From a virus: a stretch of 59,330 bases of DNA. Below are positions 2,243 through 46,504 of this stretch, piece after piece. Both the position numbers and the translations under genes were made by a program. The stretch spans positions 1 to 59,330 of IMG/VR virus record IMGVR_UViG_3300042876_000365. One strand, written 5' to 3'. Within the stretch, counting starts at the first letter, position 1. Each line of letters starts with the position of its first letter. The notes below the pieces were generated by a model. The model saw nothing but the letters and a program-made list of their open reading frames with translations, ran no database searches and was not told the DNA's origin.

Positions 2243-2287
2243 GCCGTTGTCCTGTGCCCCCTGGGTCAGGGGGTAGAGGAGAGCGGC
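2243..2287 (+). promoter_or_regulatory. Structured RNA leader of the coat gene (copy A1)
   Basis: A 45-nt imperfect hairpin. Outer helix GCCGTT/AGCGGC; a G-G opposition; middle helix TCCT/AGGA; conserved GTG opposite TAG; apical helix CCCCCT/AGGGGG with loop GGGTC. It ends 13 nt before the coat start (2301), with the ribosome site AAGGAG in between. Three more copies lie at 7153, 40368 and 46460, all in front of coat or tail-tube genes, with compensatory changes in every helix. There is no U-tract, so it is not a terminator. Likely a cis-acting mRNA element controlling the most abundant virion proteins. Confidence 0.8.
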
Positions 2288-2300
2288 GGAAGGAGTGGAA

Positions 2301-3518
2301 GTGGCTGACATTTCCGTCGTAAAGACCTACGCCAAGTACATCGCCATGACCGTGGCTCAGGTGATGCGCGGTCTCAACCCGATCACCGCATTCGCCGGCC
2401 AGCCCTCGCTCAAGCTGAGCGGCGCCGACCCGAAGAACGACGCCATCGTCGAGATCTGGGAGCAGGCTTCCGCCGCCCGCGAGCCGGCCGTCGCCGGGAC
2501 GCCCCCGGACGGCGTGATCCAGCGCACGACCGCGGCGGTCAAGATGTTCCACATCGACAACAAGGTGCAGCTGGACAACCAGACCATCGCCCAGGCGATC
2601 GGTACCGGCGCCATCCCGCAGGTGATCAGCCTGCTGGCCGCGAGCGTCTACGAGAAGCTCCAGGCGAAGGTGCTCCCCGAGGTCGTCAACGCGTTCTTCA
2701 ACTACTACGGGACGACCGGGGCGATCCCGAACGACGGGACCGTGATCACCGGGGCCCGCGGGGTCGTCGGCGACCGCTCCCAGGGCTGCTTCGCCCCGGA
2801 CGACGGGCAGCGCGTCCTGCTGCTGGACTCGACGATCTACGGGAGCCTGCTCAACGTCGCGGGGCTCACCGGGTTCTCGAACGTCGGCACCGCGGAGGCC
2901 CTGCGGACCGGCCAGCTCTTGCCGATGCACGGCTTCGGCCGGATCAAGGAGTCCTCGTACTTCACCGGCCTGAACCATACCCTGGGCACCGCGACCGGCG
3001 TGCTCCTCAACGGCGCGCACGCCGCAGGCCTCAACGTCATCAACATCGACACCGCGGCCGGCGCCGGGACCGTGCTCAAGGGCAGCGTCTTCACCATCGC
3101 TGGCAGCACGCAGAAGCACCGCGTCGTCGGCAAGCTCGCCGTGGCCACGACCGGCTACATCGGCCAGCAGTCCTTCGCCGACATGACGCTCGCCAACGGG
3201 GTCGCTCAGGATCTCGTGATCTATCCCCCGCTCCCGGTGGCCCTCGCCGACAACGCGGCGATCACCTTCCTGGCGACGCACGGGATCGGCGGCCTGGCGT
3301 TCCACCCGATGTCCCTGGTCGTCGCTTCGCGGCGGCTGCCCGAGCAGGGGGCCGGCTACGTCGAGGAGTACGTCACGGATTCCGAGCTGAACCTCGACAT
3401 CCGGGTGACCAACTTCGGCGGCTACCTCCAGAACAACTGGGCGGTGGACATCAACGCCGGCGCCGCGGTGGCGATCCCGCGCTTCGGCGGCCGGATCATC
3501 CGCTCCGTCTGGCCGTAA
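2301..3518 (+). CDS. Major capsid protein, P22 coat-like (unit A)
   Basis: A 405-residue coat protein of the HK97 fold in the P22-coat-like branch. Evidence is its place after the scaffold, the N-terminal long helix region, an inserted beta domain around residues 225-300 (GTVLKGSVFTIAG, resembling the P22 insertion domain), and the C-terminal segment ITFLATHGIGGLAFHPMSL typical of this family. Homologous to 40427-41668. Start: GTG at 2301 is preferred over GTG at 2295 because AGGAG lies 5 nt upstream and the unit B protein starts at the equivalent GTG. Preceded by the structured leader and followed by a conserved hairpin. Confidence 0.85.
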   Translation: MADISVVKTYAKYIAMTVAQVMRGLNPITAFAGQPSLKLSGADPKNDAIVEIWEQASAAREPAVAGTPPDGVIQRTTAAVKMFHIDNKVQLDNQTIAQAIGTGAIPQVISLLAASVYEKLQAKVLPEVVNAFFNYYGTTGAIPNDGTVITGARGVVGDRSQGCFAPDDGQRVLLLDSTIYGSLLNVAGLTGFSNVGTAEALRTGQLLPMHGFGRIKESSYFTGLNHTLGTATGVLLNGAHAAGLNVINIDTAAGAGTVLKGSVFTIAGSTQKHRVVGKLAVATTGYIGQQSFADMTLANGVAQDLVIYPPLPVALADNAAITFLATHGIGGLAFHPMSLVVASRRLPEQGAGYVEEYVTDSELNLDIRVTNFGGYLQNNWAVDINAGAAVAIPRFGGRIIRSVWP

Positions 3519-3541
3519 TCGTCGGCGGAGTGACAACCATG

Positions 3542-3571
3542 GGCCGGGGCGAGCGCGAGCGGACCCCGGCC
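3542..3571 (+). terminator. Conserved hairpin after coat gene (unit A)
   Basis: A perfect 8-bp stem GGCCGGGG/CCCCGGCC with a 14-nt loop (CGAGCGCGAGCGGA), followed by GCTTTT. The identical stem and loop follow the unit B coat gene at 41679-41708, where the T-run is absent. It may be a partial terminator that lowers downstream expression relative to coat, or an mRNA 3' stabiliser; the invariant loop hints at more than a simple terminator. Confidence 0.65.
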
Positions 3572-3593
3572 GCTTTTCAGCGAGGAGGATGAA

Positions 3594-3758
3594 ATGGCGG
3601 AAGTGGAAACGGTCAAGGTCAGCGACGGAGCAGGCGACTACGTCGTGATCAACAAGAACGATTTCATCAAGGGCAAGCACACGATCTGGACCCCGGAGAA
3701 GGCCGAGAAGGAAAAGGCTGCGATCGCCGCGGCTGCCGAGAAGGCCGGGAAGGAGTAG
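3594..3758 (+). CDS. Small acidic/basic head protein (unit A)
   Basis: A 54-residue protein between the coat and connector genes, preceded by GAGGAGG. The N-terminal part (GDYVVINKNDF) is short and beta-like; the C-terminus is a Lys/Ala/Glu-rich helix. The equivalent gene at 41736-41879 shares the pattern of YV/M-x-INK followed by a lysine-rich end. Similar small proteins after coat genes are often head decoration or stabilising proteins, but no specific family is recognised. Confidence 0.65.
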   Translation: MAEVETVKVSDGAGDYVVINKNDFIKGKHTIWTPEKAEKEKAAIAAAAEKAGKE

Positions 3759-3764
3759 GCTCCG

Positions 3765-4145
3765 GTGACCACCTACAGCACTGACGAGGACCTGGTCCCC
3801 GTCTTCGTCCAGGACGCAGAGACCCTGCCCGACTCCCTGGTGCCGCACCACGAGGCCGCCTACGCGCAGATCAGGCGGGACCTGGTTGGGATGGGACGGA
3901 CGGCTGCGGAGCTCGATTCCTTGACGTCTGACACCCTGGCCGCGCTCAAGGTCCCGTCGTGCCACTACGTCCTTCACCTGCTCTTCCAGAGCCAGACCCA
4001 CGGCCGCACTGGGGATCTGTTCGAGCTGGCCAAGCACCACCTGGGCGAGTACCAGCGGACTCTCCGGTCGACCGTCATCGAGAGCACGGCCGACCCCTCG
4101 AACGAGCCGCCCCGTGCCACCGGCGGGTATGTGGTGCTGGCCTGA
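3765..4145 (+). CDS. Head-tail connector protein (unit A)
   Basis: A 126-residue helical protein starting at GTG, homologous to 42422-42814: TYSTDEDLVPVFVQDA near the N-terminus and a Gly-Gly-Tyr-Val-Val C-terminus are shared. Its length and place after the coat region fit an HK97 gp6 or SPP1 gp15-type adaptor that attaches to the portal and starts the neck. The stop overlaps the next start (TGATG). Confidence 0.65.
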   Translation: MTTYSTDEDLVPVFVQDAETLPDSLVPHHEAAYAQIRRDLVGMGRTAAELDSLTSDTLAALKVPSCHYVLHLLFQSQTHGRTGDLFELAKHHLGEYQRTLRSTVIESTADPSNEPPRATGGYVVLA

Positions 4146-4756
4146 TGATCGACTTCAACGTCGAGTTCAAGGGCAAGGGCGCCGCGCTCAAGGCGATCGA
4201 GAAGATCCGGAGTGCGATCGAGCGCAAGAAAGTGCTGAAGTTCGTCGCTGACGAGGCCGTGGATCTGATCAAGGCGCGCACGGTGACGCAGCAGCTCGAC
4301 GAGAACGACCGCCCGCTGATCCCCAGCAAGCGCGCGGAGCGTGAGAACGGACAGACCCTCTCCGACAAGGGGCACATGCTCGGGGCGATGCGGCTGCTCA
4401 GCGTCAGCGCCGACAAGGCCGTGATCGGGTTCGGCGACCAGATCCAGGCGAAGAAGGCCTGGTGGGCCCAGGACGGGACCGAGCCGCACGTCATCAGCGC
4501 CAAGAACGGCAAGGCGCTGGCGTTCTCCTCCTCGATGTCCGCGGCCACGCACATGCGGGGGAAGGGCGGCAAGTCCAAGCGCATCACGATGGCCAATGCC
4601 CGGCCCAATGCCAAGGGAATGGTCGTCGCGCAGCGCGTTCACCACCCCGGAACCCCGAAGCGTCCGTTCTTCGGGATCTCGCCCAAGGACTCCGTGGGCT
4701 TGCAGGCGCTCCTCGACGCCTACCTCACCCGGACGATCAGCGAGGCAAGCCGATGA
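4145..4756 (+). CDS. Tail completion / virion morphogenesis protein (unit A)
   Basis: A 203-residue protein resembling the P2 gpS / Mu gpG-type virion morphogenesis family: basic N-terminal helices, LSDKGHMLGAMRLLSV, then KKAWWAQDGTEPHVI, and a C-terminal PKRPFFGIS motif. These proteins act at the head-tail junction or tail terminator. Homologous to 42811-43362. ATG overlaps the upstream stop, and its own stop overlaps the next ATG (ATGA). Confidence 0.7.
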   Translation: MIDFNVEFKGKGAALKAIEKIRSAIERKKVLKFVADEAVDLIKARTVTQQLDENDRPLIPSKRAERENGQTLSDKGHMLGAMRLLSVSADKAVIGFGDQIQAKKAWWAQDGTEPHVISAKNGKALAFSSSMSAATHMRGKGGKSKRITMANARPNAKGMVVAQRVHHPGTPKRPFFGISPKDSVGLQALLDAYLTRTISEASR

Positions 4757-5196
4757 GCCAGGCTCAGGACTTCGGCGACATCCAGGACCTGGCCATTGCC
4801 GCCTTGAAGACCTCAGTCACCAGCGTCAAGACGGTGGAGGAGTACGCCGGCCAGCTCGAGGACGCGATCGAGGGCAGGACCGCGGGGTTCCCCCTCCTGG
4901 CCGTGCTCTTCACCGGCGAGGACTTCGAGGAGATCGACGGGCCCTCGCACCACGAAGCGAATGAATTCGAGGTGGGCATCTTCGTGCACTCCTTGCGCGG
5001 CGCCGCCGACCTGAAGAGCCGTTCGCGGCAGCTGATTCGTGAGGTGAAGCAGTGCCTGGTGAACGCTCGACTGGCTGAGAACCTCGAGTCGGTCAAACCG
5101 ATTCGCCTCCGCCCGATCTTCGCAAGCGACGTGACGCGGGTCTACGGATTCAGCTTCTCGGTGGCCATGGACCAAACCTACCAGTGGCCGGGGTGA
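4753..5196 (+). CDS. Gp37/DUF1834-like tail protein (unit A)
   Basis: A 147-residue protein with the layout of the Mu Gp37 (DUF1834) family: helical N-terminus, VEEYAGQLEDAI, FPLLAVLFTGEDFEEID, and a central strand leading to a hydrophobic end (SFSVAMDQTYQ). Its homologue is at 43359-43805. The family is probably a tail terminator or neck component. It ends at a TGATG overlap with a lipoprotein gene. Confidence 0.7.
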   Translation: MSQAQDFGDIQDLAIAALKTSVTSVKTVEEYAGQLEDAIEGRTAGFPLLAVLFTGEDFEEIDGPSHHEANEFEVGIFVHSLRGAADLKSRSRQLIREVKQCLVNARLAENLESVKPIRLRPIFASDVTRVYGFSFSVAMDQTYQWPG

Positions 5197-5657
5197 TGAC
5201 GATGGGCCGTCCCCTGCGTTTGTACCTCCTCGCGGTACTTGCAGCCGTCGTCGTGCTGCTGCCGACGGGATGCACCAAGATCGGCGATCTTCTGGGCTTC
5301 GTCGACTACCAGAAGACCTCCGCGGGGGTGAAGGTCGACACCAGGGGCTACGCCGTCGACATGGACAAGATCGACGGTGACTGGCGCGCCGTAGCTGAGT
5401 GCTGGGGCTGGAGCGGGGGAGCCAGGGGGACCGTCGTGAGCATCTCTGACCCCGTGGGAGTGAACAGCCACGGCAACGAGTACTTCATGTACGGCGGGAA
5501 CATGTACATGGGCTATCAGGTCGGCTTGGTCGTCTTCGTCCCGCCCGACCTTGCGGCCCTGCGCCACGAGCTCTCTCACCGCGTGTGCCAGCTGCAGCGG
5601 AATCCGGACTGCGAGAACGGGGCCGGGAAGTGCTGGCTGGGGAGGAAGAAGACGTGA
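5196..5657 (+). CDS. Lipoprotein with HExxH metallopeptidase-like motif
   Basis: A 153-residue protein with a lipoprotein signal: Met-Thr-Met-Gly-Arg, a hydrophobic stretch of ~18 residues and lipobox LPTGC. Near the C-terminus it has LRHELSHRVCQL, i.e. HELSH, matching the HExxH zinc-protease signature, followed by several cysteines that could form disulfides outside the cytoplasm. No third zinc ligand can be assigned by eye. It lies in the middle of tail genes where lipoproteins are not expected, and unit B lacks it. It may act on the host envelope during lysogeny or lysis; function unknown. Confidence 0.65.
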   Translation: MTMGRPLRLYLLAVLAAVVVLLPTGCTKIGDLLGFVDYQKTSAGVKVDTRGYAVDMDKIDGDWRAVAECWGWSGGARGTVVSISDPVGVNSHGNEYFMYGGNMYMGYQVGLVVFVPPDLAALRHELSHRVCQLQRNPDCENGAGKCWLGRKKT

Positions 5658-6475
5658 AGATGAAGTGGCTCGCTGGGATCCTGGCTGTGCTCGTGTTGCT
5701 CGCTCCGGCGGGCGCCATCTGCCAGCCGTACGAGTACTCGCCTGCCGAGCCGCCGGCCGCCGGCACCGCGCTTCCCCAGGAGGGTGGCAAGGCCCGAAGC
5801 GGCGCGACTGGGACGGCCGCGGCCTACTCCCGCGAGGATCACGTCCACCCTCTGACCTGGTCGACGGACTTCCTCTATGCCGCGGCGCCCTATCCGTGGT
5901 TCGGGTCTGCAGTTTCCTCCGGCACTCAGTCGTCGACGCCGAGCGCCGCCAACCACCCGGGCATCAGCCGGATTTCATCCTCGACGACCACCAACTCCGG
6001 CTGGTCGATCGCAACCAATCTCGCGGCGCTGTTGCTGGTCGGCGGCGAGGAAACCGAGTGCGTCTTCTCGGTCATCACCACCGCCTCGACGACCGTCCGG
6101 ATTGGATTTCTCGACGCGAACAGCTCGGCCCAGCCGACCGATGGGTGCTGGCTTGAAGTCGCCGGGACCACGGCGTCCGGCTACTGCAAGAACAACGCTG
6201 GGCCTACGCAGACCGGGACCACCTACACGATCACCCAGGGGACCTGGTACCGGGGGACCATCGCCGTCAACGCCGCGGCCTCATCCGTCGTCTTCGCCCT
6301 CTTCACAGCCGATGGATCGCAGGTCTGGACAGGAACCGTCGCCGCGAACATCCCGACCACGACCGGCCGCGAGACCGGGCACGGCGTCATCGCGACCAAT
6401 AGCGGAACCACCGCGCTGGCCCTGATCGACGTCGACTACCTGTCCCTGTCATTCGGCCAACCGCTGGCGAGGTAA
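5654..6475 (+). CDS. Secreted fibre-like protein with YSREDHVHP motif
   Basis: A 273-residue protein beginning at GTG in a GTGA overlap, or at ATG 5660. The N-terminus is a signal peptide (basic start, hydrophobic core, PAGAICQ). The following GTAAAYSREDHVHPL is the motif seen in phage tail-fibre and capsid-fibre proteins where a fibre domain begins. The rest is Ser/Thr/Gly-rich and beta-strand-like. A fibre-type motif behind a signal peptide is unusual. It could be a surface protein displayed by the lysogen, or the hydrophobic N-terminus may serve virion anchoring. Confidence 0.6.
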   Translation: MKMKWLAGILAVLVLLAPAGAICQPYEYSPAEPPAAGTALPQEGGKARSGATGTAAAYSREDHVHPLTWSTDFLYAAAPYPWFGSAVSSGTQSSTPSAANHPGISRISSSTTTNSGWSIATNLAALLLVGGEETECVFSVITTASTTVRIGFLDANSSAQPTDGCWLEVAGTTASGYCKNNAGPTQTGTTYTITQGTWYRGTIAVNAAASSVVFALFTADGSQVWTGTVAANIPTTTGRETGHGVIATNSGTTALALIDVDYLSLSFGQPLAR

Positions 6476-6480
6476 CGAGA

Positions 6481-7143
6481 ATGGCCGCAGCGGACAACAT
6501 CATCAGCTTCGGGGTCGCCGGGCTGACGCTCGACTGCTCGGGCATCACCTGGGTCTACTGCAAAGACCACACCGGGGCCGACGTCTCGACAGCGGGGTGC
6601 TCACTCGTCGTGCTCGGCGCCGGGGACTACTTCCTGACCAACCCGAACGCCACGGGACCGACCGCGATGCGCGGCTATGTCACTGCCGATCCCACGAAGG
6701 TAGGTCGGTGCGTGATCGATCCGACGCCGGTCTCCACCAAGGAGGCGATCATCGCCGGGGTTGCCGCACTGCTCGCCGGGAGCATCGTCCCCTCCGCCAT
6801 GCAGAGCCGGGGCCTGGCGAAGGGGGCCGTGCCGCGCGAGATCCGCCGCGGGGACGTCCACACGATCACCTTCACCTTGGGCGCGGAGTACGACCTGACC
6901 GGGAAGAAGGTCTATGTCTGCGCCAAGCGTCACAAGAGCGACGACAACGCCCTGGCGATCGTGAACCGGGAGGCAACCGTGACCGACGTCGCCGGCCGAA
7001 CCGGGTACATCACCCTGACGGCGGTCGAGACCGCCAACGTCGGGACATACTCCGCCGAAATCGAGCTGCGGGACGCGGCCGACAACAACCCTGAGACGGC
7101 CTACGCCGAGGACTGGGTGATCACGCAAGACGTACGGCAGTAA
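6481..7143 (+). CDS. BppU-N-like beta-sandwich protein (unit A)
   Basis: A 220-residue protein. Residues ~125-215 (RRGDVHTITFTLG...GKKVYVCAKR...AIVNREATV...GTYSAEIELRD) resemble the beta-sandwich of baseplate upper protein N-terminal domains. The same domain forms the C-terminus of the 577-residue protein at 44717-46450. The N-terminal ~110 residues are a separate beta-rich domain (DFL/YFLTNP). It probably belongs to a host-contact structure, although it lies before the tail-tube gene rather than at the distal tail. Confidence 0.55.
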   Translation: MAAADNIISFGVAGLTLDCSGITWVYCKDHTGADVSTAGCSLVVLGAGDYFLTNPNATGPTAMRGYVTADPTKVGRCVIDPTPVSTKEAIIAGVAALLAGSIVPSAMQSRGLAKGAVPREIRRGDVHTITFTLGAEYDLTGKKVYVCAKRHKSDDNALAIVNREATVTDVAGRTGYITLTAVETANVGTYSAEIELRDAADNNPETAYAEDWVITQDVRQ

Positions 7144-7152
7144 CACAAACCG

Positions 7153-7197
7153 CCCGCTGTCCTGTGCCCCCTCGAGGAGGAGGTAGAGGAGAGCGGC
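7153..7197 (+). promoter_or_regulatory. Structured RNA leader of the tail-tube gene (copy A2)
   Basis: Same 45-nt element as at 2243. Outer helix CCCGCT/AGCGGC (one C-C opposition), middle TCCT/AGGA, conserved GTG opposite TAG, apical CCCCCT/AGGAGG (one C-A) with loop CGAGG. It ends 13 nt before ATG 7211, with AAGGAG in the gap. Confidence 0.8.
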
Positions 7198-7210
7198 AGA
7201 AGGAGCGGAC

Positions 7211-8503
7211 ATGGGTGCATCAGGTTCGGAAATCGTCCTGGCAGCAAAGAAGGCCCAGACGTGGGGGACGCCGGTCCAAGTCGGGGCGAACAACGGAATC
7301 CTGATTCTCCCGGCCAGCGCGATGAAGAGGGACCAGCCGTTCTTCATCGATGACTCTCTCGGCCTGGGCTTCCCGACGGATGGGGACCTCGGCGAGGTGA
7401 CCGTCGACGGCGAGCTCGTCGGCTACATGCGGTATGACTCCCTGGACCTGCTCATTGGCATGGCGATGGGGGCGCACGCCGTCACGCACACCGTGCCGAC
7501 CGCTGGCGCCGGGGGCGCGGCAGCGAGCGGCACGACCACGACCCTGGTGAAGACGGCCGCCGGCTGGGGGGTGGACGCCTACGCCCTCGCGGCCGGCAGG
7601 TTCTACGTGACCGTGACCGCTGGCACGAACGCCGGCATCACCCGCCGCATCATCAGCAACACGGCAACGCAGCTGACCTTCGGCGCGATGCCCGTCGCCT
7701 GCGACGCGACCACGGTCTTCACCATCTCGGGCGCGGCCTCGACGCACGTCTACACCCTTGCCCCGAACACGGACGGGCAGTTCTTCACGCTCGTCGCCAA
7801 GCTCGGCACGATCTACGTCGACGAGATCACGACGGCGAAGTGCGCCGGCTTCACCATCAAGGGGGGGACCGGCCAGCCGATTCAGGTGGCCTTCCGGATC
7901 ATCGGCCACGAACGCAACAGCAACACCGTCGCCGGGACCAACAACAACACGACGATCCTGGCCGTTACGTTTCCCGAGACCGCCAACCGGCTGCTCTACC
8001 GGGACATCAAGTTCCGGATGAACACGAGCAGCGGCGGGGCAATCAGCGACGCCGACCGAATCTACCCGGTCTCCTACGACTTCGCCTATGACCGCGACAT
8101 CCTGGGGGTCTACGGGACTGGCTCGAGCTACAACAACATCGACGAGCCCACGAACAACGGGGATCCCAAGTACGGCCTGAAGTTCGAGCTCGGGCGCCTG
8201 ACCGCCGCCGGGCAAGCCCTGATTGCCGCCAAGGACGCGGGCACCGCTCAGAAGATCGACATCACCTTCACCGGCGCGCTGCTCGCCGGGGCGACGTACC
8301 GCTCGATGCTCATCGAGATCCCGAACGCGAAGTTCTCGTCGGCCTCGGCGCCGATCAAGAAGGGGATCCTCACCGTGCCCGCGGAGATGTCCTTGTTCGC
8401 GCGCTCGGCGGCCCCCACCGGGATGGCGGGGCTCACCTCGCCGTTCCGACTCACCCTCGTCAACGCCTTCGGCGGCGACGTTCTCCAGGAGGCGGTGGCG
8501 TAA
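7211..8503 (+). CDS. Major tail tube protein (unit A)
   Basis: A 430-residue beta-rich protein, homologous throughout to 46519-47832. Its place before the frameshifted chaperone and tape measure marks it as the tail tube subunit, which polymerises around the tape measure. Residues ~95-180 form an inserted module (TLVKTAAGWGVDAY, VTAGTNAGITRRI, LTFGAMPVACDATTVFTIS) that also occurs in the protein at 54100-54660, so it is probably an exposed decoration domain. The C-terminus reads FGGDVLQEAVA, as in unit B. The structured RNA element lies just upstream. Confidence 0.75.
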   Translation: MGASGSEIVLAAKKAQTWGTPVQVGANNGILILPASAMKRDQPFFIDDSLGLGFPTDGDLGEVTVDGELVGYMRYDSLDLLIGMAMGAHAVTHTVPTAGAGGAAASGTTTTLVKTAAGWGVDAYALAAGRFYVTVTAGTNAGITRRIISNTATQLTFGAMPVACDATTVFTISGAASTHVYTLAPNTDGQFFTLVAKLGTIYVDEITTAKCAGFTIKGGTGQPIQVAFRIIGHERNSNTVAGTNNNTTILAVTFPETANRLLYRDIKFRMNTSSGGAISDADRIYPVSYDFAYDRDILGVYGTGSSYNNIDEPTNNGDPKYGLKFELGRLTAAGQALIAAKDAGTAQKIDITFTGALLAGATYRSMLIEIPNAKFSSASAPIKKGILTVPAEMSLFARSAAPTGMAGLTSPFRLTLVNAFGGDVLQEAVA

Positions 8504-8889
8504 TGGAACTCGGGAACTTCCTCTCCGACGACAAGGTGTACAGGATCCCCTTCGGCAACCCTTCCGAAGGGGGCTTCGTCCATCTGCGGTTCGTGGCGCG
8601 GGACAAGATGAACGACCTGTTCCGCAAGTCCTCCAGCATCAACTACGACCCGGTCTCGCACGTGCGCAAAGCGGAGCCGGACAGCAAGAAGTTCGACAGG
8701 TTCACCGGGGAGTGCGCCGTGGCCGGGTGGGAAGGGCTCACGGTCAACGGCGAGGAGTACCCCTTCACCCCGGAGAACCGCGACGCGCTGATGCTGCGGA
8801 ACACGACCTTCGCCAAGTTCGTGCACGACATGAGCGACGACATCATCGCGCTCGAGCGGGCTCACCAGGAGGCCGTCCGGGGAAACTGA
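8503..8889 (+). CDS. Tail assembly chaperone, short form (gpG-like, unit A)
   Basis: A 128-residue protein between tail tube and tape measure, equivalent to lambda gpG. The start overlaps the tail-tube stop (TAATG). It ends in RGN immediately before TGA, and the last codons form the slippery heptamer GGGAAAC in the right phase for a -1 shift. Shared features with 47836-48213 are the start MELGNF and the segment GGEEYPFTPENRDALM. These chaperones coat the tape measure and recruit tube subunits. Confidence 0.8.
   Translation: MELGNFLSDDKVYRIPFGNPSEGGFVHLRFVARDKMNDLFRKSSSINYDPVSHVRKAEPDSKKFDRFTGECAVAGWEGLTVNGEEYPFTPENRDALMLRNTTFAKFVHDMSDDIIALERAHQEAVRGN
8880..8886 (+). promoter_or_regulatory. 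Programmed -1 frameshift site GGGAAAC (unit A)
   Basis: In the zero frame the codons read CGG GGA AAC TGA, a canonical X XXY YYZ heptamer with the stop directly after. The shift leads into the -1 frame (CTG ATT CGG), open to 9194. The same heptamer, stop and following nine bases occur at 48204-48222. Confidence 0.85.
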
Positions 8890-9194
8890 TTCGGCACGTC
8901 CACGCGGTACTCCTGCACCCGGGGGTGTCGTGTGAAGCGTGCCGAGACGCAGAGGAAAACGATGGCAGAGCGCCGGAGTGCGTGGACGGGGAATGCCCCA
9001 TCCCGGACATCCCCCTCGAAGCTGCGAGGGCCTTCAAGGTGTGGTGCCGGCTGGATGCCCTGCGGGACTTCGGAGGCGGCGCCGTGATCATGGCGCAGGC
9101 GGGCCTCTCGGCAGTCGAAATTGACCTGCTCGTGGTCATCGAAACCACGGTGCAGAAGGTGAGGCGGGCGAACACGCCCGCGAAGGAGGAGTAG
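8886..9194 (+). CDS. Tail chaperone frameshift extension (gpT-like, unit A)
   Basis: The -1 frame extension gives a 230-residue fusion (128 + 102), equivalent to lambda gpGT. The extension starts LIRHVHAVLLHPGV, has SCEACRDAEE with a CxxC pair, and contains LDALRDFGGGAVIMAQAGLS, which is almost the same in unit B. It has no good independent start codon and ribosome site, supporting expression by frameshift only. The unit B fusion is also 230 residues although its two parts differ in length. Confidence 0.8.
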   Translation: MIRHVHAVLLHPGVSCEACRDAEENDGRAPECVDGECPIPDIPLEAARAFKVWCRLDALRDFGGGAVIMAQAGLSAVEIDLLVVIETTVQKVRRANTPAKEE

Positions 9195-11273: not shown

Positions 11274-11274
11274 C

Positions 11275-19288: not shown

Positions 19289-19659
19289 AGCTTCCTGCAT
19301 GAGTCGGCCAGCACCCGGACGGTCCGCGGCGAGACAAGAAGCTTCGCTCGTACGCACAAGAGTAGCTCTGGGCTCATGTCGGCATTCAGATGACACCGAC
19401 CGCTCTTGAAGGCCGCCCGGACCTCTGAGGCAGTGAACCAGCGCGCTGCCGCGAAGTCGACAGCAGACGGGTGGCGAATGAAAGGGTGATCGCCAACATC
19501 CAGAACGAGGGTCGGATCGGTGTACGGCTTTGCAGAGCGCAGCATGACGGCGACGATTCGACCAGTGCGGTCAGGATTGGTCAAGATAAACCAGAGGTGT
19601 GGCTCGTAAAGCGGGGGCTCGGAGAGCATGACGCTCCCGCCGGCCCGGATGATGTCCAT
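19267..19659 (-). CDS. Probable toxin partner of Panacea antitoxin
   Basis: A 130-residue protein whose ATG overlaps the stop of the Panacea gene (TGATG), the usual arrangement for a toxin-antitoxin pair. Sequence marks are PHLWFILTNPDRTGRIVAV, LVLDVGDHPFIRHPSAV and a central RWFTASEV. No catalytic site is obvious. I infer the toxin role from the operon, since Panacea antitoxins pair with many unrelated toxins. It is immediately upstream of the integrase. Confidence 0.55.
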   Translation of the reverse strand: MDIIRAGGSVMLSEPPLYEPHLWFILTNPDRTGRIVAVMLRSAKPYTDPTLVLDVGDHPFIRHPSAVDFAAARWFTASEVRAAFKSGRCHLNADMSPELLLCVRAKLLVSPRTVRVLADSCRKLWSHASP

Positions 19660-33599: not shown

Positions 33600-34175
33600 A
33601 TGAAACAGCCCCGGACCACTTCGATCAAGACGAGCGCCCCGAAGCACGGGGAGACGAAGACGCGGCGAGGGGCTGCCCCATCCAAGAATCCCGTTGGACG
33701 TCCGAAGGACTACGATCCGAACCTGCACCCCTGGCTCGCCGAGACCCTCGCGGCCGCCGGCCTGACCGACGCCGAGATCGCGGGACGGCTCGGCAAGTCC
33801 GAGAAGACCATCGAGAACTGGAAAAAGTACCCCGAATTTTTACAGGCGCTGAGGCGGGGGAAGAAACCTGCCAACGAGCAGGTCAAGCGCAGCCTCTTCC
33901 AGCGCGCCATCGGGTACTCCTACCCCGCCGAAGAGGTCTTTTGCGCGTTCGGGAAGGTGACCAGGGTGGCGACCATGAAGCACTGCCCGCCGGACGTCAC
34001 GGCCGGGATCTTCTGGATGTGCAACCGCGATCGCGAGAACTGGAAGCATACCGCCCACCTGCAGCACAGCGGCGAGATCAAGACGGGGCCCGTGGTGTTC
34101 GTATCAGGGATTCCTGCGGCGGCCGCGCCGGATCCGGCCGATGCCGCAGCCCCATCCCCGGAGGTGGCGCCGTGA
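33600..34175 (+). CDS. Terminase small subunit-like protein 1
   Basis: A 191-residue protein. A basic N-terminus (GRPKDYDP) and the helix-turn-helix AAGLTDAEIAGRLGKSEKTI followed by YPEFLQALRRGKKPANEQVK are typical of small terminases that recognise packaging sites. The tail HSGEIKTGPVVFVSGI closely resembles the tail of the protein at 35451-35852. The gene is separated from the large subunit by a methyltransferase gene. Confidence 0.65.
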   Translation: MKQPRTTSIKTSAPKHGETKTRRGAAPSKNPVGRPKDYDPNLHPWLAETLAAAGLTDAEIAGRLGKSEKTIENWKKYPEFLQALRRGKKPANEQVKRSLFQRAIGYSYPAEEVFCAFGKVTRVATMKHCPPDVTAGIFWMCNRDRENWKHTAHLQHSGEIKTGPVVFVSGIPAAAAPDPADAAAPSPEVAP

Positions 34176-35458
34176 CCAGCGCGACCCCCGCATCACGAGA
34201 GTCAGACGTGAAACCCTCGTCGGTCCTGCTCACCGAGCCGTGGCAGATCGATCGGGTGATCCCGTATGCGCGCAACCCGCGGAAGAACACCGGCGCGGTG
34301 GCGAAGGTCGCCGCCTCGATCCGGGAGTTCGGCTTCCGGCAGCCGATCGTGGTCGACCAGGACGGCGTCGTGATCGTCGGGCACACCCGGCTCCTTGCCG
34401 CGCAGCAGCTCGGGTTCTCCGAGGTCCCCGTGCACGTGGCCACCAACCTGACGCCGGCCCAGGTGAAGGCCTACCGGATCATGGACAACCGCTCGCACGA
34501 GGAGTCCGAGTGGGACGAGGAGCTGCTCCCGCTCGAACTGACCGAACTGCGCGACGAGGGGTTCGATCTGGACCTGACTGGGTTCGACGCCAAGGAGCTC
34601 GCGGGCATCTTCCCCCCGGCGGATGGCGGCGGCCGGGACGTCGAGCCTCAAATCGACCAGGCTGAGGAGCTGCGAGCGCGGTGGGGCGTGGAGCCCGGCC
34701 AGATCTGGGTGCTCGGGGAGCACCGCCTGCTGTGCGGGGACTCGACGAAGGCGGAGGACGTTGAGCGGCTCCTGGGCGACCTTCGCCCGTCGCTGGTCTT
34801 CACGGATCCCCCCTATGGGGTGGCGATTGGGGAGAAGAACCGCCTGATCGGCGCTTCGAACACGGACGACCTGGCCTTGGACACCCTGCCGCCGGGCGAG
34901 CTCGCGGCCGCCCTCCTGCCGGCATTCAAGCTCGTGCGGGAGTTCATGGCGGATGACTGCACGGTATTCGTCACGGCACCCCTGAGCGGCGAGATCGGAG
35001 TGACGATGCTGCTGATGATGCGCGAGGCCGGACTGCCGGTGCGGCATGTGCTCATCTGGAAGAAGAACGCCCCGACCTTCAGCATGGGGCGTCTCGACTA
35101 CGACTACCAGCACGAGCCGATCCTGCTCACCTGGGGAAAGCGGCACAAGCGGCCCATGCTCGGCGCGCATCGCACTTCCGTCTGGGAGATCGATCGCCCC
35201 CGGGCGAGCGTGGAGCACCCGACCATGAAGCCTGTGGCGCTGGTCGAAAACGCGCTCTTGAACAACAGCGACGCCGGGGACCTGGTCTTCGATCCCTTCC
35301 ACGGATCCGGCACCACGCTCGTGGCTTGCGAGAACCAGGGCCGGCGCTGCCGGGCGGTTGAGATCAGCCCCGCCTACGTCGCTGTCGCGCTGCAGCGCTG
35401 GCACGAGCTGACCGGGAAGACCCCCGTGCTGGAGCAGGTGGAGGCCGTGCATGAGTAG
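34172..35458 (+). CDS. ParB-domain DNA methyltransferase fusion
   Basis: A 428-residue protein starting GTG in a GTGA overlap. Residues ~25-115 form a ParB/sulfiredoxin-type domain (RNPRKNTGAVAKVAASIREF, GVVIVGHTRLLAAQQL). Residues ~175-415 form an N4-cytosine/N6-adenine methyltransferase with DPPYG (~211) before FDPFHGSGTT (~372), i.e. beta-class order. Such fusions are frequent in phages next to terminase genes and may mark phage DNA for protection or packaging. Confidence 0.8.
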   Translation: MTSATPASRESDVKPSSVLLTEPWQIDRVIPYARNPRKNTGAVAKVAASIREFGFRQPIVVDQDGVVIVGHTRLLAAQQLGFSEVPVHVATNLTPAQVKAYRIMDNRSHEESEWDEELLPLELTELRDEGFDLDLTGFDAKELAGIFPPADGGGRDVEPQIDQAEELRARWGVEPGQIWVLGEHRLLCGDSTKAEDVERLLGDLRPSLVFTDPPYGVAIGEKNRLIGASNTDDLALDTLPPGELAAALLPAFKLVREFMADDCTVFVTAPLSGEIGVTMLLMMREAGLPVRHVLIWKKNAPTFSMGRLDYDYQHEPILLTWGKRHKRPMLGAHRTSVWEIDRPRASVEHPTMKPVALVENALLNNSDAGDLVFDPFHGSGTTLVACENQGRRCRAVEISPAYVAVALQRWHELTGKTPVLEQVEAVHE

Positions 35459-37270: not shown

Positions 37271-38724
37271 TGCTCCCGAAATCCGAAGCCGAGCGCCTGG
37301 TCCGACTCTCCCTGCTCAAGGGCGAGCCCGTCCAAGACACCGCCGCCCAGGCTGCCGCTGCCCTTGCGATCGCCTACCACGACGACAATGCCGAGGGCAC
37401 AGCGATGTCCGAGGACCTGCGCAGGTACTACGCCCCGCTCTACGCGGCCAACCCGCCCGGCCTCGTGAAGTGGAACGCGCAGCGCAAGGTGTGCTTCAAC
37501 CTGCTGCGGCCGATCGCGAGCGCGCTGTGCAACACCTACGAGGACCCGGTGCGCTACGTGTGGAGCGACGAGGATGACCCCGGCGGCAAGTGGGCGGGCA
37601 TGTTCAGTGAGTTCCGCGACGACCACGTTGCAGTCATGGCCGACGCGGACCTCTACGGCTGGCTCGGCGGCACTGCCGGCGTGCGTCCGCTGGTGACCGA
37701 GGACAAGGGCCCTCTGCGGTACGCGCTCTACACGCGGGACCAGATGTCGGGCACGCCCGACGCGATCGACCCCGCCAAGCTCGCGCAGCTCGTCGTGGCG
37801 TGGAAGAACGGATCCGGATCGGCGCGCACCGAAACCCGCCACCACTGGACCGATGACGGCTTCTTCAAGACGGTCGACGGCAAGCCGCACTTCGACGAGT
37901 GGGAGGAGAAGGCCTACCCCAAGGGCGTCCACCCCTACGGGGAGATCCCGGTCATCCTCTTCCACAACCGGCGCCCCAGGTGGTCCTGCTTCGACTTGGC
38001 ACCGATGGACCTGGTCAACATCAACCGGGCCATCAACAAGAAGGCCACGGAGCTCGACTGGCGCATGACGCTGGCGGGGGACGTGCTCTTCACGAAGGGA
38101 TACGACTCCCCGACGCCGCCGATTGTTGGGGCCGGCGCCTGGATCGACGGCGGCGCGGAGGGGAGCGCCGAGTTCCTTGGACCGGACCCGCGCGTGGCCG
38201 ACGCCGTCGCGACCATCAACGAGTACCTGGGCAAGGCGCTGATGAGCCGGCGCATCCCAGAAAACGCGATCATGGCCCGGCAGTCCGGGGAGTCAGGGAT
38301 CAAGGTTGTGGCGGACTCCGCGGCGCTGACCGGATTTCGCAAGTCCCGCGTGAACGTGCTGCGCCCCAAGGAAATCCGCTTGATTCGCCTCTCGCTCTTC
38401 ATCTACGCGATGCACCACGGCGAGCGCGTGCGCAGCATCGAGGACGTCCCGGCGCCGAGCGTCTTTTACACGATCCCGCAGCAGCCGATGAGCGCTGACC
38501 GGCGCGCCGACTGGGATCGTCGGATCCGGTTGAACCTGGCGACCCCCGTGGACGAACTGCTCGATCTGGAGCCGTCACTCGACCGTGAGCAGGCCGAGGA
38601 GCGGATCCGGCTGAACGCCGAGTACAACGGGAAGAACGGGCAACGCCAGTTCCCGGGCTTCGGGCCGGGGCAGCGCAAGAGCGCGGCCGAGATCGCCGCC
38701 GAAGAGGACGCCGCCAATGCCTGA
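37270..38724 (+). CDS. Portal protein (unit B)
   Basis: A 484-residue portal of the SPP1 gp6-like type. AANPPGLVKWNAQRKVCFNL at the start, YGEIPVILFHNRRPRW and FDLAPMDLVNINRAINKK mark the clip/stem region, and a long C-terminal helical part follows. Starts in a TGATG overlap with TerL. The last ~195 residues are nearly identical in DNA to window bases 1-500 (unit A). Confidence 0.8.
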   Translation: MLPKSEAERLVRLSLLKGEPVQDTAAQAAAALAIAYHDDNAEGTAMSEDLRRYYAPLYAANPPGLVKWNAQRKVCFNLLRPIASALCNTYEDPVRYVWSDEDDPGGKWAGMFSEFRDDHVAVMADADLYGWLGGTAGVRPLVTEDKGPLRYALYTRDQMSGTPDAIDPAKLAQLVVAWKNGSGSARTETRHHWTDDGFFKTVDGKPHFDEWEEKAYPKGVHPYGEIPVILFHNRRPRWSCFDLAPMDLVNINRAINKKATELDWRMTLAGDVLFTKGYDSPTPPIVGAGAWIDGGAEGSAEFLGPDPRVADAVATINEYLGKALMSRRIPENAIMARQSGESGIKVVADSAALTGFRKSRVNVLRPKEIRLIRLSLFIYAMHHGERVRSIEDVPAPSVFYTIPQQPMSADRRADWDRRIRLNLATPVDELLDLEPSLDREQAEERIRLNAEYNGKNGQRQFPGFGPGQRKSAAEIAAEEDAANA

Positions 38725-40367: not shown

Positions 40368-40413
40368 TCCCTTGTCGGGTGCCGACTGACGCCAGCCGGT
40401 AGCCGAGAGGGGA
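40368..40413 (+). promoter_or_regulatory. Structured RNA leader of the coat gene (copy B1)
   Basis: The most diverged copy of the element at 2243. Outer helix TCCCTT/AGGGGA, middle TCGG/CCGA, conserved GTG opposite TAG, apical CCGACTG/CAGCCGG with loop ACGC (one A-C). Every helix differs from copy A1 by compensating changes, while the connecting residues are the same. Ends 13 nt before GTG 40427 with AAGGAG between. Confidence 0.8.
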
Positions 40414-40426
40414 AAGGAGAACGAAA

Positions 40427-41668
40427 GTGGCACTGACCAACAACCTGGACAACGTCAAGCTGCGCGCGCAGTGGCTGGTGAACAACATCGCGCTCAAGTA
40501 CCGCGGCATGAACCCGCTCTCCAAGCTCTCGGGCCAGGCGTTCATGCAGCTCGGCGATCCTCAGAAGCCGATGCAGGACGCCGTCGTCGAAGTCCTCGAG
40601 CCGGTGACCTCGGCGCGCTACCCGGCCGTCCCGGGGACCGCCCCGACCGGCAGCATCAAGAAGACCGAGGCGCAGGTCAAGATGTTCCACGTCGACGACG
40701 GCATCCCCATGTCGCACACGGACATCGACCAGTGCATCGCCTCCGGGGAGGTGCCGGAGATCATCGGCATGCTGGCGGACGGCATCCTCGAGAAGGTGCA
40801 GACGCTCGCGGTCCCGGAGGTCATCAAGGGCACGTTCCAGTACAGCGGCGCCGTCAACGCGCTGCCGGCCCTGGCCGCCGACGTGATCGCCGCCAAGGCC
40901 GCGCTCGAGAATCGCGCCATGGGCATGCACACCCCGCCCGGCAACGGCCGCGCGCTCTGGATGACCCAGGAGTTCAACAACGCGCTGCTCGGCGTCTCGG
41001 AGTACGTGATCGCCTCCAGCGTCGGGGACGCCTCCACGATGGCGACTGGCAAGCTCACGCCGAAGATGGGCTTCAACCAGATGCTCGACACCACCTACCT
41101 CAGCGGCGTCAACGTCACGACCGGGACCGCGACGGGGGTCGTGCTCTCCGGCGCGCACGTCGCCGGGGCCAACGTCCTGAGCCTCGTCACCGCGGCGGGC
41201 GCCGGGACGGTCAAGATCGGCTCCGTCTTCACCCTCGCGGGCTCCACCCAGCGGCACGTGGTGCGCGGCAAGATCACCACGGCGCCCGGGGGCGGCGGCA
41301 GCTTCGCCGGTCGCATGACCTACGCGGACATCACGCTGGTCAACGGCGCCGCGCAGGACTGCGTCATCTACCCGCCGCTGCCCGCGAACCTCGCGGACAC
41401 CACGGCGCTCACCTTCGTCGCCACGCACGGGATCGCCGCGCTGGCGTTCAACCCGCTGGCGCTGGTGTGCGTCGCCCGCCGCTTCCCCGACTACCTGCCG
41501 GGCAGCGGGTGGGTCGGCGCCTACGCGGTCGATCCGGACACGAACATGGCGTTCCGGGTGCACACGTACGGCGACTACATGACCAACGGGTACGCCGTCG
41601 ACGTCTGCGGCGGCATGGCGTGCGCGTCGCCGCGCTGGATGTCGCGGGTCGTGCAGACCCCGGCGTAA
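40427..41668 (+). CDS. Major capsid protein, P22 coat-like (unit B)
   Basis: A 413-residue coat protein homologous to 2301-3518. N-terminal RAQWLVNNIALKYRGMNPLS, insertion-domain-like AGTVKIGSVFTLAGSTQRH, and C-terminal LTFVATHGIAALAFNPLAL. HK97-fold coat of P22 type, assembled on the scaffold encoded just upstream. GTG start with AAGGAGAA upstream. Confidence 0.85.
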   Translation: MALTNNLDNVKLRAQWLVNNIALKYRGMNPLSKLSGQAFMQLGDPQKPMQDAVVEVLEPVTSARYPAVPGTAPTGSIKKTEAQVKMFHVDDGIPMSHTDIDQCIASGEVPEIIGMLADGILEKVQTLAVPEVIKGTFQYSGAVNALPALAADVIAAKAALENRAMGMHTPPGNGRALWMTQEFNNALLGVSEYVIASSVGDASTMATGKLTPKMGFNQMLDTTYLSGVNVTTGTATGVVLSGAHVAGANVLSLVTAAGAGTVKIGSVFTLAGSTQRHVVRGKITTAPGGGGSFAGRMTYADITLVNGAAQDCVIYPPLPANLADTTALTFVATHGIAALAFNPLALVCVARRFPDYLPGSGWVGAYAVDPDTNMAFRVHTYGDYMTNGYAVDVCGGMACASPRWMSRVVQTPA

Positions 41669-42420: not shown

Positions 42421-42421
42421 A

Positions 42422-44408: not shown

Positions 44409-44410
44409 AC

Positions 44411-44704
44411 GTGGGAACCTATGCAGATCAGGCCGCACTTGCGGTGAACAATGAGTTCATCGCCAAGGTGCGTGTCGCGCTCATCAAGAAGGCGCTCGAC
44501 ATTTTCGCCGGGGCCGACCGGCAGAGCGTCGGTACGCTGAACCTCGTCACCGCGATCCTCTCCGACTCCGACGGCTACGCGGCCCGTATGGCGTGGCTCA
44601 TCGCGGCGGGAAATTCCGAGGTCGGCACGAACGCTCCCGCGATCCCCGACGACGGGGCGCTCTCGTGGTGCGTGGCCGACATGCTGCCGAAACTCGTGCG
44701 CTAG
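44411..44704 (+). CDS. Small helical hypothetical protein (unit B variable slot)
   Basis: A 97-residue helical protein starting GTG: AALAVNNEFIAKVRVALIKK, then LNLVTAILSDSDGYAARMAW. It resembles small phage proteins found beside tail fibre genes, but I cannot name the family. Confidence 0.5.
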   Translation: MGTYADQAALAVNNEFIAKVRVALIKKALDIFAGADRQSVGTLNLVTAILSDSDGYAARMAWLIAAGNSEVGTNAPAIPDDGALSWCVADMLPKLVR

Positions 44705-44716
44705 GAAACCGGGCTG

Positions 44717-46450
44717 ATGGCGAGAAAACTGCGTCAAAGCACGGCGGTGAAGGTCGTCGTCGGCCCCTTCCTCGACAAGACCGACGGCATCACGCCCGAG
44801 GTCGCTCTCACCGTTGCCAACTGCCTTTCCACGCTGATCCTCCAGGGCGAGGCCGACGCCGCGCCGAACAAGCTCCTCGACAGCGTGGCGGGCAGCGACG
44901 CTACGAACACGCTCGCGCACATCGCCAACGATGACGCCGGCTACTACACGCTCAAGTTGAGCGCGACGAATCTGGCAACGTGCGGGACGCTACTGCTGTC
45001 GATCAACGACGCGGCGAACCACTGCCCGGTGTTCCACGAGTTCGAAGTGGTGCCGGCGGTCGTGTACGACGCGCTCGTCCTTGGCACCGACCTGCTCGAT
45101 GCGAACGCCGCGCAGTTCGGCGGCCAGACCGTGACCGCCGCGGCCGGGGTGACCGTGCCGGCGAGCATCGCCAGCCCGACGAACATCACCGCGGCATCGG
45201 GCGTTGCGCTTGCCGCGGATCAGGCGGTGAACGTCACGAAGGTAGGTGGCGTGACGCAGACCGGCCGCGACATCGGCGCGTCGGTGCTGGTGGGCGACAA
45301 GACCGGCTTCGCCCTGGAGACCGCCCCGCCGACCGTCGCCGAGATCCGCGAGGAGATAGACGCGAACAGCAGCGCGCTCCAGGGAATCGCTGCGGCTATC
45401 GGCGGGCTTCCCGCTCCTCCCGCGGCCGACGCAATCCGCGAGGAGATCGAGACGAGCCAGTTCGGCCGCGTCGTGGCGAAGCGCCGCGACTTGTACCCGT
45501 GCGGCGGCTGGACTGGCATGGGGGCGCCGGCCGTCACCGCTGGCATCCCGACCGACGCCAGAATCTCGATTTGCTGGAAGGGGTGGAGTCCCGAGGCGGG
45601 CGAGCTGGTGTGGCAGCCGCTCCTCGAAAAGGAACCTGCTGGGACGCCGATCCCGAACAGTGACCCACCTGCCGAGTACGACGGCGTGGAATGGCAGATC
45701 GACCCTGACGCGCTCGCTGGCGATCCGTCGGCCTACCCCGTGCCGCCCTACGCCTGCCTGCAGTACAGCGTCGAGGCCGGCGCGACTGACGTTCCCGCGC
45801 ACCTGATCCGCCTCAACCCGGCGGGCCTGGACGCGAGCGACTGCCTGCACAACACGATCTATTGCCCGCCGGTCAAGGCTGGCGCGGTGTGGCACTCCTT
45901 CGTCAGGGGCGACGGTCATGCGGTCGTCCCCTACGGCGCCTATCTCGCGGGCGATTGGGGCGAGGTGAGCGCGGCGGTTGCGGCTGCGGAGACCGTTGGC
46001 GTGGCGGTCGCGGCGATCCCGACGGACGGCGGCGGCATCACCCCGGAGCAGTACGCCGCACTGGCGAAGGAAGCCACGGTCCTGGGGCAATTCGGCGTCA
46101 CCTGGGGCCTGACCTACCCGCTCGTGCGCCGCGACGGGGTCATCAACGTCCCGCGCGGGGACGTCTTCACGGTCAGCTTCACCCTCGGTGCCGCGTTTCC
46201 GCTCGCCGGCCGCAAGGTCTACTTCTGCGCCCAGAAGCGCCGGGCGGCCGACAACGCCGCGGCCATCGTGAACCGCGAAGCGACGATCACCGACGAGACG
46301 GCGCGCACCTGCAGCATCACCCTGACAGCGGCGGAGACCGCCGTGGCCGATCGCTACCTCTACGAGATCGAGGTGCGCGACACGGACGACACCAACACTG
46401 CGACCGCCGAGAGCGGGACGCTGAACATCATCGACGATCTGCGGAAGTAA
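44717..46450 (+). CDS. Large fibre-like protein with BppU-like C-terminus
   Basis: A 577-residue protein. N-terminal beta domain (residues 1-115, KVVVGPFLDKTDGITPEVAL), then repeats of Thr/Ala-rich strands, two REEI(D/E) helices (~210 and ~235) suggesting a trimeric stalk, a middle domain with RRDLYPCGGWTGMGAP, and a C-terminal BppU-N-like domain (~475-570, VPRGDVFTVSFTLGAAF) shared with 6481-7143. It is probably a receptor-binding or peripheral baseplate component, although encoded before the tail tube. Confidence 0.55.
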   Translation: MARKLRQSTAVKVVVGPFLDKTDGITPEVALTVANCLSTLILQGEADAAPNKLLDSVAGSDATNTLAHIANDDAGYYTLKLSATNLATCGTLLLSINDAANHCPVFHEFEVVPAVVYDALVLGTDLLDANAAQFGGQTVTAAAGVTVPASIASPTNITAASGVALAADQAVNVTKVGGVTQTGRDIGASVLVGDKTGFALETAPPTVAEIREEIDANSSALQGIAAAIGGLPAPPAADAIREEIETSQFGRVVAKRRDLYPCGGWTGMGAPAVTAGIPTDARISICWKGWSPEAGELVWQPLLEKEPAGTPIPNSDPPAEYDGVEWQIDPDALAGDPSAYPVPPYACLQYSVEAGATDVPAHLIRLNPAGLDASDCLHNTIYCPPVKAGAVWHSFVRGDGHAVVPYGAYLAGDWGEVSAAVAAAETVGVAVAAIPTDGGGITPEQYAALAKEATVLGQFGVTWGLTYPLVRRDGVINVPRGDVFTVSFTLGAAFPLAGRKVYFCAQKRRAADNAAAIVNREATITDETARTCSITLTAAETAVADRYLYEIEVRDTDDTNTATAESGTLNIIDDLRK

Positions 46451-46459
46451 CCACCAGCC

Positions 46460-46504
46460 GCCGTTGTCCTGTGGGCCTTCGCAGAGGGCCTAGAGGAGAG
46501 CGGC
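46460..46504 (+). promoter_or_regulatory. Structured RNA leader of the tail-tube gene (copy B2)
   Basis: Outer helix GCCGTT/AGCGGC, middle TCCT/AGGA, conserved GTG opposite TAG, apical GGCCTT/AGGGCC with loop CGCAG. The apical helix is fully replaced relative to copy A1 yet still pairs. Ends 14 nt before ATG 46519, AAGGAG between. Confidence 0.8.

Follow-up and report, generated by a model that had tools for sequence, protein, structure and literature searches.

A covarying hairpin upstream of major capsid and tail-tube genes as a candidate cis-acting RNA family of long-tailed phages

Introduction

Start-associated sequences (SAS) and extended start-associated sequences (ESAS) of Cluster K mycobacteriophages are conserved repeats found at the ribosome-binding site (RBS) of a subset of genes or immediately in front of it; their function is described as unknown (PMC3203893). 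Cluster EF Microbacterium phages also carry them at the RBS of a subset of genes (PMC7302621). The SAS is a 13-bp sequence at the RBS reading GGGATAGGAGCCC or GGGAAAGGACCCC (PMC3203893, PMC7302621); in the Cluster K ESAS, a 17-bp sequence is repeated in inverted and imperfect form, in most cases 4-13 bp apart, and SAS/ESAS sites there are limited to non-structural genes of the right arm (PMC3203893), while the Cluster EF ESAS is weakly conserved, centred on GTAGAG and located upstream of the SAS (PMC7302621). In the current study, we characterized a hairpin that precedes genes for the major capsid protein (MCP) and the tail-tube protein (TT) in the 59,330-base virus record IMGVR_UViG_3300042876_000365, analyzed over its whole length and referred to as the window, and in three other contigs of related, uncultured phages. 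The window appears to join two related phages, here called A and B, and each copy of the hairpin is named after its phage and the gene that follows it (A_MCP, A_TT and so on).

Tailed phages need many copies of their capsid and tail-tube proteins and few of the neighboring products, commonly from one long messenger, and to our knowledge it is not well known how the levels of these two proteins are set. Hairpins near a start site can serve translational control that is read by a protein, as in the coat operators of RNA phages and the Com/mom pair of phage Mu, and the RNase III sites of T7 are located between genes. In the same connection, thrS is also named (PMC3936740).

The hairpin in question resembles SAS/ESAS in position: both are found directly upstream of the RBS of some genes. 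Its geometry, with 20-nt arms and a loop of 4-7 nt, is similar to that of the Cluster K ESAS, with no shared sequence seen, and the GTAGAG of the Cluster EF ESAS also occurs, by eye, in four of our nine copies (A_MCP, A_TT, and the TT copies of contigs G002 and G003). The SAS/ESAS sites of TM4, Pixie and AnnaSerena, which we read as having arms like GTGTTGAC...TCAACA and GGGATAGGAGCCC at the RBS, are unlike our sequences, and all nine of our RBS regions read AAGGAG with flanks that differ from the 13-bp SAS. In contrast to the non-structural genes of Cluster K, it is MCP or TT genes that all nine copies precede. A covariance model built from the nine copies, designated R1, was run on 32.8 of the 52.8 kb of TM4, 41.1 of the 61.1 kb of Pixie and 46.7 of the 56.7 kb of AnnaSerena and matched none of them credibly; its best scores were 18.4 bits in Pixie, on the minus strand, and 12.6 bits in AnnaSerena. 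We hold that SAS/ESAS and the hairpin are probably analogous in position, and a common origin with the Cluster EF element is possible.

Like the translational operators, the hairpin adjoins a Shine-Dalgarno (SD) sequence, where a protein reader could change initiation, but its stem does not include the SD, and it is shared by two unrelated virion genes. With T7-type RNase III hairpins it has in common that it is long, intergenic and interrupted by internal mismatches, whereas its invariant core and near-fixed place relative to the SD set it apart.

Results

Hairpin copies in the window

An earlier note on this DNA had reported four hairpins of 45-46 nt in front of coat and tail-tube genes. All four were found at the positions it gave and fold as it described. 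The copies, their SD sequences and the genes behind them are as follows.

2243-2287, plus strand: hairpin A_MCP, from sequence, fold and a covariance-model match of 66.9 bits (the copy was in the model's building set)
2290-2295, plus strand: SD sequence AAGGAG, 2 nt 3' of the A_MCP hairpin
2301-3518, plus strand: major capsid protein of phage A (mechanical open reading frame, ORF, from 2295); PHROG 283 major head protein, E 3e-30
7153-7197, plus strand: hairpin A_TT, 9 nt past the upstream ORF stop codon, from sequence, fold and covariance model
7200-7205, plus strand: SD sequence AAGGAG of A_TT
7211-8503, plus strand: tail-tube protein of phage A; E 3e-9 to PHROG 290, whose listed function is minor tail protein
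40368-40413, plus strand: hairpin B_MCP, of a second sequence type (TCGG/CCGA middle helix), from sequence, fold and covariance model
40414-40419, plus strand: SD sequence AAGGAG, immediately 3' of the B_MCP hairpin
40427-41668, plus strand: major capsid protein of phage B; PHROG 283, E 6e-22
46460-46504, plus strand: hairpin B_TT, 9 nt past the upstream ORF stop codon, from sequence, fold and covariance model
46507-46512, plus strand: SD sequence AAGGAG of B_TT
46519-47832, plus strand: tail-tube protein of phage B, 63% identical to that of phage A

With flanks included, the four window copies fold at -32.1 to -39.4 kcal/mol (z -4.5 to -6.2), and none of 200 dinucleotide shuffles was as stable for any of them. 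Their leaders were the four most stable among 32 hand-chosen gene starts. Between the helix and AAGGAG there are 0-2 nt. If the capsid gene of phage A starts at GTG 2301, the four start codons follow their hairpins after 13, 13, 13 and 14 nt. That start, rather than the mechanical one at 2295, is our inference and agrees with the G002 orthologue; given it, the SD in the gap and the start codon 13-14 nt away hold as originally noted. In a nucleotide self-comparison of the window, 2235-2307, before the MCP gene, aligned with 7144-7217, before the TT gene (82%, E 1e-12), and 2235-2297 aligned with 46452-46514 (79%, E 7e-8). The two A copies are alike across the entire intergenic gap, flanks included.

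Further copies in related phages

Five extra copies were found on three other IMG/VR phage contigs, bringing the total to nine copies in five phages, located before the MCP gene in five of five and before the TT gene in four of five. Placement before coat and tail-tube genes, as the earlier note had it, thus extends beyond the window. The contigs are the following.

G003 (L006), 3300033233_000106, 34.9 kb: one copy before the MCP gene and one before the TT gene
G002 (L012 and L272), 3300043431_000259, 34.7 kb: copies before the MCP and TT genes
G001 (L089), 3300037851_000530, a 17.5-kb fragment: one copy, before the MCP gene

The G002_MCP copy, in which the wobble position of the core is changed, came to light when the sequence in front of the gene was read. 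End repeats of 254 bp in G002 (99.6%) and 126 bp in G003 (100%), together with that of B described below, suggest that G002, G003 and B are complete circular genomes. R1 scored the nine copies at 49.7-72.9 bits, values that follow by construction from the use of the same nine to build the model; the informative part is the lack of further copies. Exactly two credible R1 copies each were present in B, G002 and G003, and no other credible site occurred in the sequence of the five phages, where the remaining scores were at most 12.6 bits apart from reverse-strand shadows of the same hairpins (up to 27.6 bits) and L262:2987 (20.0 bits).

The TT proteins of the related phages are 40-63% identical to that of phage A. 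MCP identity to phage A is 49% for G001 and 68% for G002. The G003 MCP (L006 8301-9464, minus strand), only 26% identical to that of A, does not group with it and is 40.7-46.4% identical to coat proteins among the matches listed (15 of 27 phage records), one of which is named P22 coat protein. Despite this other capsid family, the G003 element and its SD context are nearly those of B_MCP.

Architecture, pairing and covariation

In all nine copies the hairpin consists of ~20 layers: an outer helix of 6 pairs, a G-G opposition, a helix of 4, a second G-G, U-A, G-U, and an apical helix of 6 closed by a loop of 4-7 nt. AAGGAG starts 0-5 nt and the start codon 13-22 nt past the helix. The upstream ORF stops 9-25 nt before the hairpin, and exactly 9 nt before it in the four TT copies. 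The combination of a near-fixed SD distance with a looser distance to the upstream stop indicates that the RBS is the reference point. The stretch 5' of the hairpin is rich in A and C by eye, and the hairpin is predicted to form in context (mean probability of inner pairs 0.97-1.00).

In a MAFFT alignment of the nine copies, 93.2% of paired cells are occupied by pairs and 8 of 18 pairs change on both sides. None of 500 shuffles reached the covariation score, 15 of 500 reached the count of further pair types, and sliding the partners lowered the score from 0.315 to at most 0.100. In an alignment made by hand, 9 pairs change on both sides. Where the earlier note had called for R-scape, we substituted, on this second alignment, a tree-based null in which substitutions were re-dealt; none of 2000 simulations reached the observed total of 0.306 (null maximum 0.059), a control that is only approximate because the tree was drawn from the same 40 columns. 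Pairs 1, 4, 10, 11, 17 and 18 of 20 individually had p <0.05, uncorrected, under this null. The changes common to B_MCP and G003_MCP, although many in number, count as one event.

Other positions do not vary. Both G-G oppositions are invariant in nine of nine copies, as are six Watson-Crick pairs (2, 3, 6, 8, 9 and 13), and the two halves of the core mirror each other, G-G followed by U-A being repeated five positions apart. Pair 14, beside the second G-G, is G-U in eight copies and has become A-C in the ninth. Since these two wobbles are isosteric, the change, a single case, is suggestive of a kept wobble. The triplets TGT...GTG and TAG...AGA, which had been described as invariant from the four window copies, therefore hold as to the G-G oppositions, but G14 and T27 become A and C together in that one new copy.

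That paired bases change together, as the earlier note maintained, stands, but the helices are imperfect. The A_TT copy has C-A at pair 17 in the apical helix and C-C at pair 1, the base of the outer helix; A-C occurs at apical pair 18 in four copies, within the window only in that at 40368; pair 1 in G001_MCP and G002_MCP is C-A, or C-G after a shift; and G002_MCP has G-G at pair 4. Two sequence types can be distinguished by the middle helix, TCCT-like and TCGG, the latter comprising B_MCP and G003_MCP. Both A copies are TCCT-like, while B and G003 each carry one type before the MCP gene and the other before the TT gene, so that the two copies of a phage do not simply correspond. All nine share the core and, in part, the outer helix.

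Compensatory pair changes beyond those expected from phylogeny, within the approximate tree control, qualify the element as a likely structured cis-acting RNA. At the level of sequence, the pattern of substitution demonstrates selection both for pairing and for the invariant core.

Three known kinds of element were considered and rejected. An intrinsic terminator is contradicted by the lack of a U tract, with purines and the SD following the hairpin in all nine copies, and no terminator-like site was found on the coding strand of 1500-9000, which includes both A copies. A leader peptide running from TTG or CTG to TAG keeps its frame to the TAG in five of nine copies, all with a 5-nt loop (by eye), and the loops of 4, 6 or 7 nt break the frame in the rest. 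A CsrA-type GGA site in the stem is absent from the B_MCP type (by eye).

Searches for more copies

The earlier note had proposed a covariance model and a search of phage genomes, anticipating many hits upstream of coat or tail-tube genes. Hits with that context were obtained, on the three contigs above, but they are few and make five phages in all. Four DNA patterns based on the invariant letters matched 12, 78, 41 and 11 stretches of IMG/VR viral contigs, the last pattern with the SD added. This SD-containing pattern was widened after the G002_MCP copy had been read, so that its hit on this copy is not independent. Genuine copies were judged by pairing in both helices and by R1, and only the G001, G002 and G003 contigs passed; over the other pattern loci scanned (all except L283-L302), R1 gave at most 27.5 bits. 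The locus with that score, L162, is on a contig of a metagenome-assembled genome, behind a RidA-like gene (by eye) and without a clear SD, and L072 (25.2 bits) is inside a long coding frame; in our reading, neither is the element. L009, L046, L126, L146 and L163 passed a loose filter and were dropped on pairing and score, their gene context unread.

Protein queries with MCP and TT in viral contigs returned the same contigs plus L018 and L015, the latter a false lead. On L018 (420-452), a related TT gene has another short palindrome just before its SD, with no conserved core by eye, and R1 found no match at this TT start. In genome contigs the TT query found no relative, and a pattern scan returned at least 116 stretches with no genuine copy among the matches listed. 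R1 matched in none of 22 genomes behind chance pattern hits, an uninformative result with at most 150 candidates scored in each. Protein alignments across sampled genomes, 1,616 in total, gave partial matches only: for MCP, weak ones in 1 of 247, 0 of 235 and 1 of 247 genomes, whose three loci had no R1 match, and for TT in 4 of 200, 1 of 240, 2 of 201 and 2 of 246, the listed matches all falling within residues ~86-187.

Among 50,697 phage records, two leaders used as queries had no match, and blastn and tblastn with the queries tried found only distant capsid and terminase matches. One copy queried against plasmids gave no match. R1 found nothing in 14-15 kb around the capsid genes of P106B, qsb1, CGphi29, X2_24 and Vibrio R01, known phages with capsid proteins related to those of G003 or A. 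In the window, Rfam release 15 gave no matches at gathering threshold and four sub-threshold hits up to E 5, all off the elements, in keeping with the original remark that the hairpin is not of a recognized family. This hairpin was not described in the literature searched on phage RNA elements before capsid or tail genes and on related hairpins, a search that covered few subscription papers.

Genes behind the hairpins

The phage A MCP is ~26-27% identical to annotated Vibrio phage capsid proteins, and a scaffolding protein (Pfam Phage_scaffold) precedes the MCP gene of phage B. PHROG 290 is matched by the TT proteins of three of the five phages; that of phage B had no PHROG match at E 0.01. 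The structure model of the phage A TT protein is of low confidence (mean pLDDT 40.8), with best PDB fold matches to tail-tube and tail-tip entries of P74-26, T5 and DT57C, and right after its gene, at 8503, is a tail-assembly-chaperone match (E 9e-5). The capsid model was too poor and was not used, and profile searches of PDB sequences found no match for MCP or TT. Portal, MuF, scaffold, connector and tail genes are among the gene groups that all five phages share. As a separate observation, the stretch at residues ~86-187 of the phage A TT protein was also seen in 9 of the 887 genomes sampled with it, within frames of 322-4,635 aa and across all four groups searched.

The window as two joined phages

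Two diverged sets of the same late genes are present in the window, each followed by a large serine recombinase. An exact repeat (127/127 bp) links 21109-21235 with 59204-59330, the end of the record, and 1-582 is 93% alike to 38132-38713 in the nucleotide self-comparison. We read the window as the late half of phage A plus a complete phage B of ~38.1 kb; the repeat at the phage junction and record end suggests either an assembly join at a shared k-mer in the metagenome or tandem prophages, and for this reason the record should not be handled as one genome. What had been presented as a four-copy element is thus real as to its four copies, but these are two per phage in two related phages. Both phages look temperate. 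Other features are as follows.

17867-19396, minus strand: large serine recombinase of phage A, 49% identical to that of phage B
57735-59168, minus strand: large serine recombinase of phage B, 49% identical to that of phage A
21938-22645, minus strand: repressor-like protein with helix-turn-helix and Peptidase_S24 domains

Beside the phage A recombinase, at 19659-20195 (minus strand), lies a gene for a SocA/Panacea-type antitoxin domain protein, a possible cargo or defence gene. At 33941-35458, upstream of what is likely the terminase of phage B (35849), a ParB-like domain is fused to a DNA methyltransferase domain.

Discussion

We propose that the hairpin represents a new family of cis-acting structured RNA on the late messenger of long-tailed phages, acting at initiation or on the messenger, with its core docked by a common factor; taken as a whole, we consider this about as probable as all else combined. 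The hairpin would act after transcription, either on the frequency of ribosome initiation at the MCP and TT genes or on their messenger. The core, with its two G-G oppositions five positions apart and each followed by U-A, would be the docking site of a single factor that serves both genes. This core is probably the signal that the two genes have in common, because the types found in B and G003 share, beyond it, only parts of the outer helix. The docking factor could be coded by host or phage, and would not be the capsid protein itself; if phage-coded, it may be one of the genes common to the five phages or one of the early genes missing from A and G001.

The earlier note had offered a translational operator bound by a structural protein as one hypothesis. 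For the capsid protein this is weakened, since the hairpin is present whichever capsid family follows, including the G003 MCP, and also serves the TT gene, which makes its own product an unlikely ligand; another structural protein is possible. The reader is more likely a factor that these phages, or their hosts, have in common. An antitermination element, also suggested then, is unlikely from the position of the hairpin in the gap before each gene, 0-5 nt before the SD. As for the direction of the effect, we lean toward activation or co-ordination because both genes encode bulk virion proteins.

Several observations weigh against this proposal. It is drawn from five phages only, two of which, A and G001, are fragments, and the TT gene of G001, whose start was read directly, is without the element. 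The G002_MCP copy is weaker than the others (z -2.9, 1 of 200 shuffles as stable, and a G-G within the outer helix). The start codon is predicted to be mostly paired in B_MCP (unpaired probability 0.07) and G003_MCP (0.13). No RNA-binding Pfam match above the cut-off was found in the nine proteins scanned, the early regions of A and G001 being missing from the sequence. Finally, the standby-site model predicts neither shut-off nor gain. In that model, initiation is reduced by a tall hairpin close to the SD if too little single strand flanks it, and the available surface equals 15 + proximal + distal - height, with values <10 being poorly accessible (PMC3936740). With the proximal length set to the SD gap, the distal length to the distance from the upstream stop and the height capped at 15, an arithmetic of our own, we obtained 11 for the four TT leaders and 18-30 for the five MCP leaders. 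By this model, values >10 mean that the hairpin on its own would not have to prevent initiation, which a bound factor could shift in either direction.

A more specific and distinctly more doubtful version is a 'stoichiometry switch', in which one trans-acting factor would read the tandem G-G/U-A site and set capsid and tail tube together from one long late transcript, the hairpin being kept like a socket when a new capsid gene arrives, as G003 suggests. Its probability is lowered by the finding that the copies within a phage resemble each other closely only in A, the pairs of B and G003 being of two types.

Of the alternatives, a processing or stabilizing hairpin survives best, although we regard it as doubtful to the same degree as the 'stoichiometry switch'. 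Here a cut in the ~20-layer helix by a double-strand-specific ribonuclease of RNase III type, or a block to exonucleases, would yield separate, longer-lived MCP and TT messages, and after such a cut the purine-rich 3' arm would be an open ribosome-binding leader. The helix is close in length to two turns of A-form RNA and sits between genes, before those that need the most message, and the rank of the four window leaders as the most stable of the gene starts compared also fits. However, the invariant G-G/U-A core shows a specificity beyond what should be needed for generic processing, and a processing helix would not require a near-constant place relative to the SD.

Strong folding in context and the A/C-rich stretches upstream are what one would expect of a passive insulator, a hairpin that merely keeps the RBS free of structure or fixes spacing with no factor to read it, and the free change of paired bases would be explained too. 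Nevertheless, this is improbable: any stable hairpin would suffice, leaving the six unvarying Watson-Crick pairs and the two G-G oppositions unexplained, and the region to be kept open is not predicted to be very open (unpaired probability 0.43-0.76 at -12 to -1 and 0.07-0.83 at the start codon, the A_MCP value using the 2295 start).

We consider it more improbable still that the element works as DNA, whether as an operator, a late promoter or a recombination boundary for exchange of head and tail modules. The arms change together across types while the non-complementary G-G oppositions stay fixed, and no sigma-70-like promoter was found in 1500-9000, which includes both A copies. The occurrence of the same element before capsid proteins of different families does fit a boundary, as does the match of the two A copies over the whole gap, expected of a copied cassette, but exchange at the element is compatible with an RNA function. 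Chance similarity or recent duplication without function, to which the small number of copies and the shared flanks of the A copies might point, is scarcely credible in view of the covariation and of the fact that the hairpin has been kept ahead of the same two genes across five phages with TT proteins as divergent as those described above.

The hairpin is thus most likely involved in post-transcriptional control of two bulk virion proteins, as an apparently new, small RNA family. A covarying hairpin before these two genes, even with another capsid family, provides a concrete, testable cis element, and its invariant non-Watson-Crick core predicts a docking site and hence an RNA-binding factor. 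If the hairpin raises output, it would also offer a portable expression element for GC-rich bacteria. For the phages themselves, it suggests a new way in which the amounts of shell and tail protein may be set.

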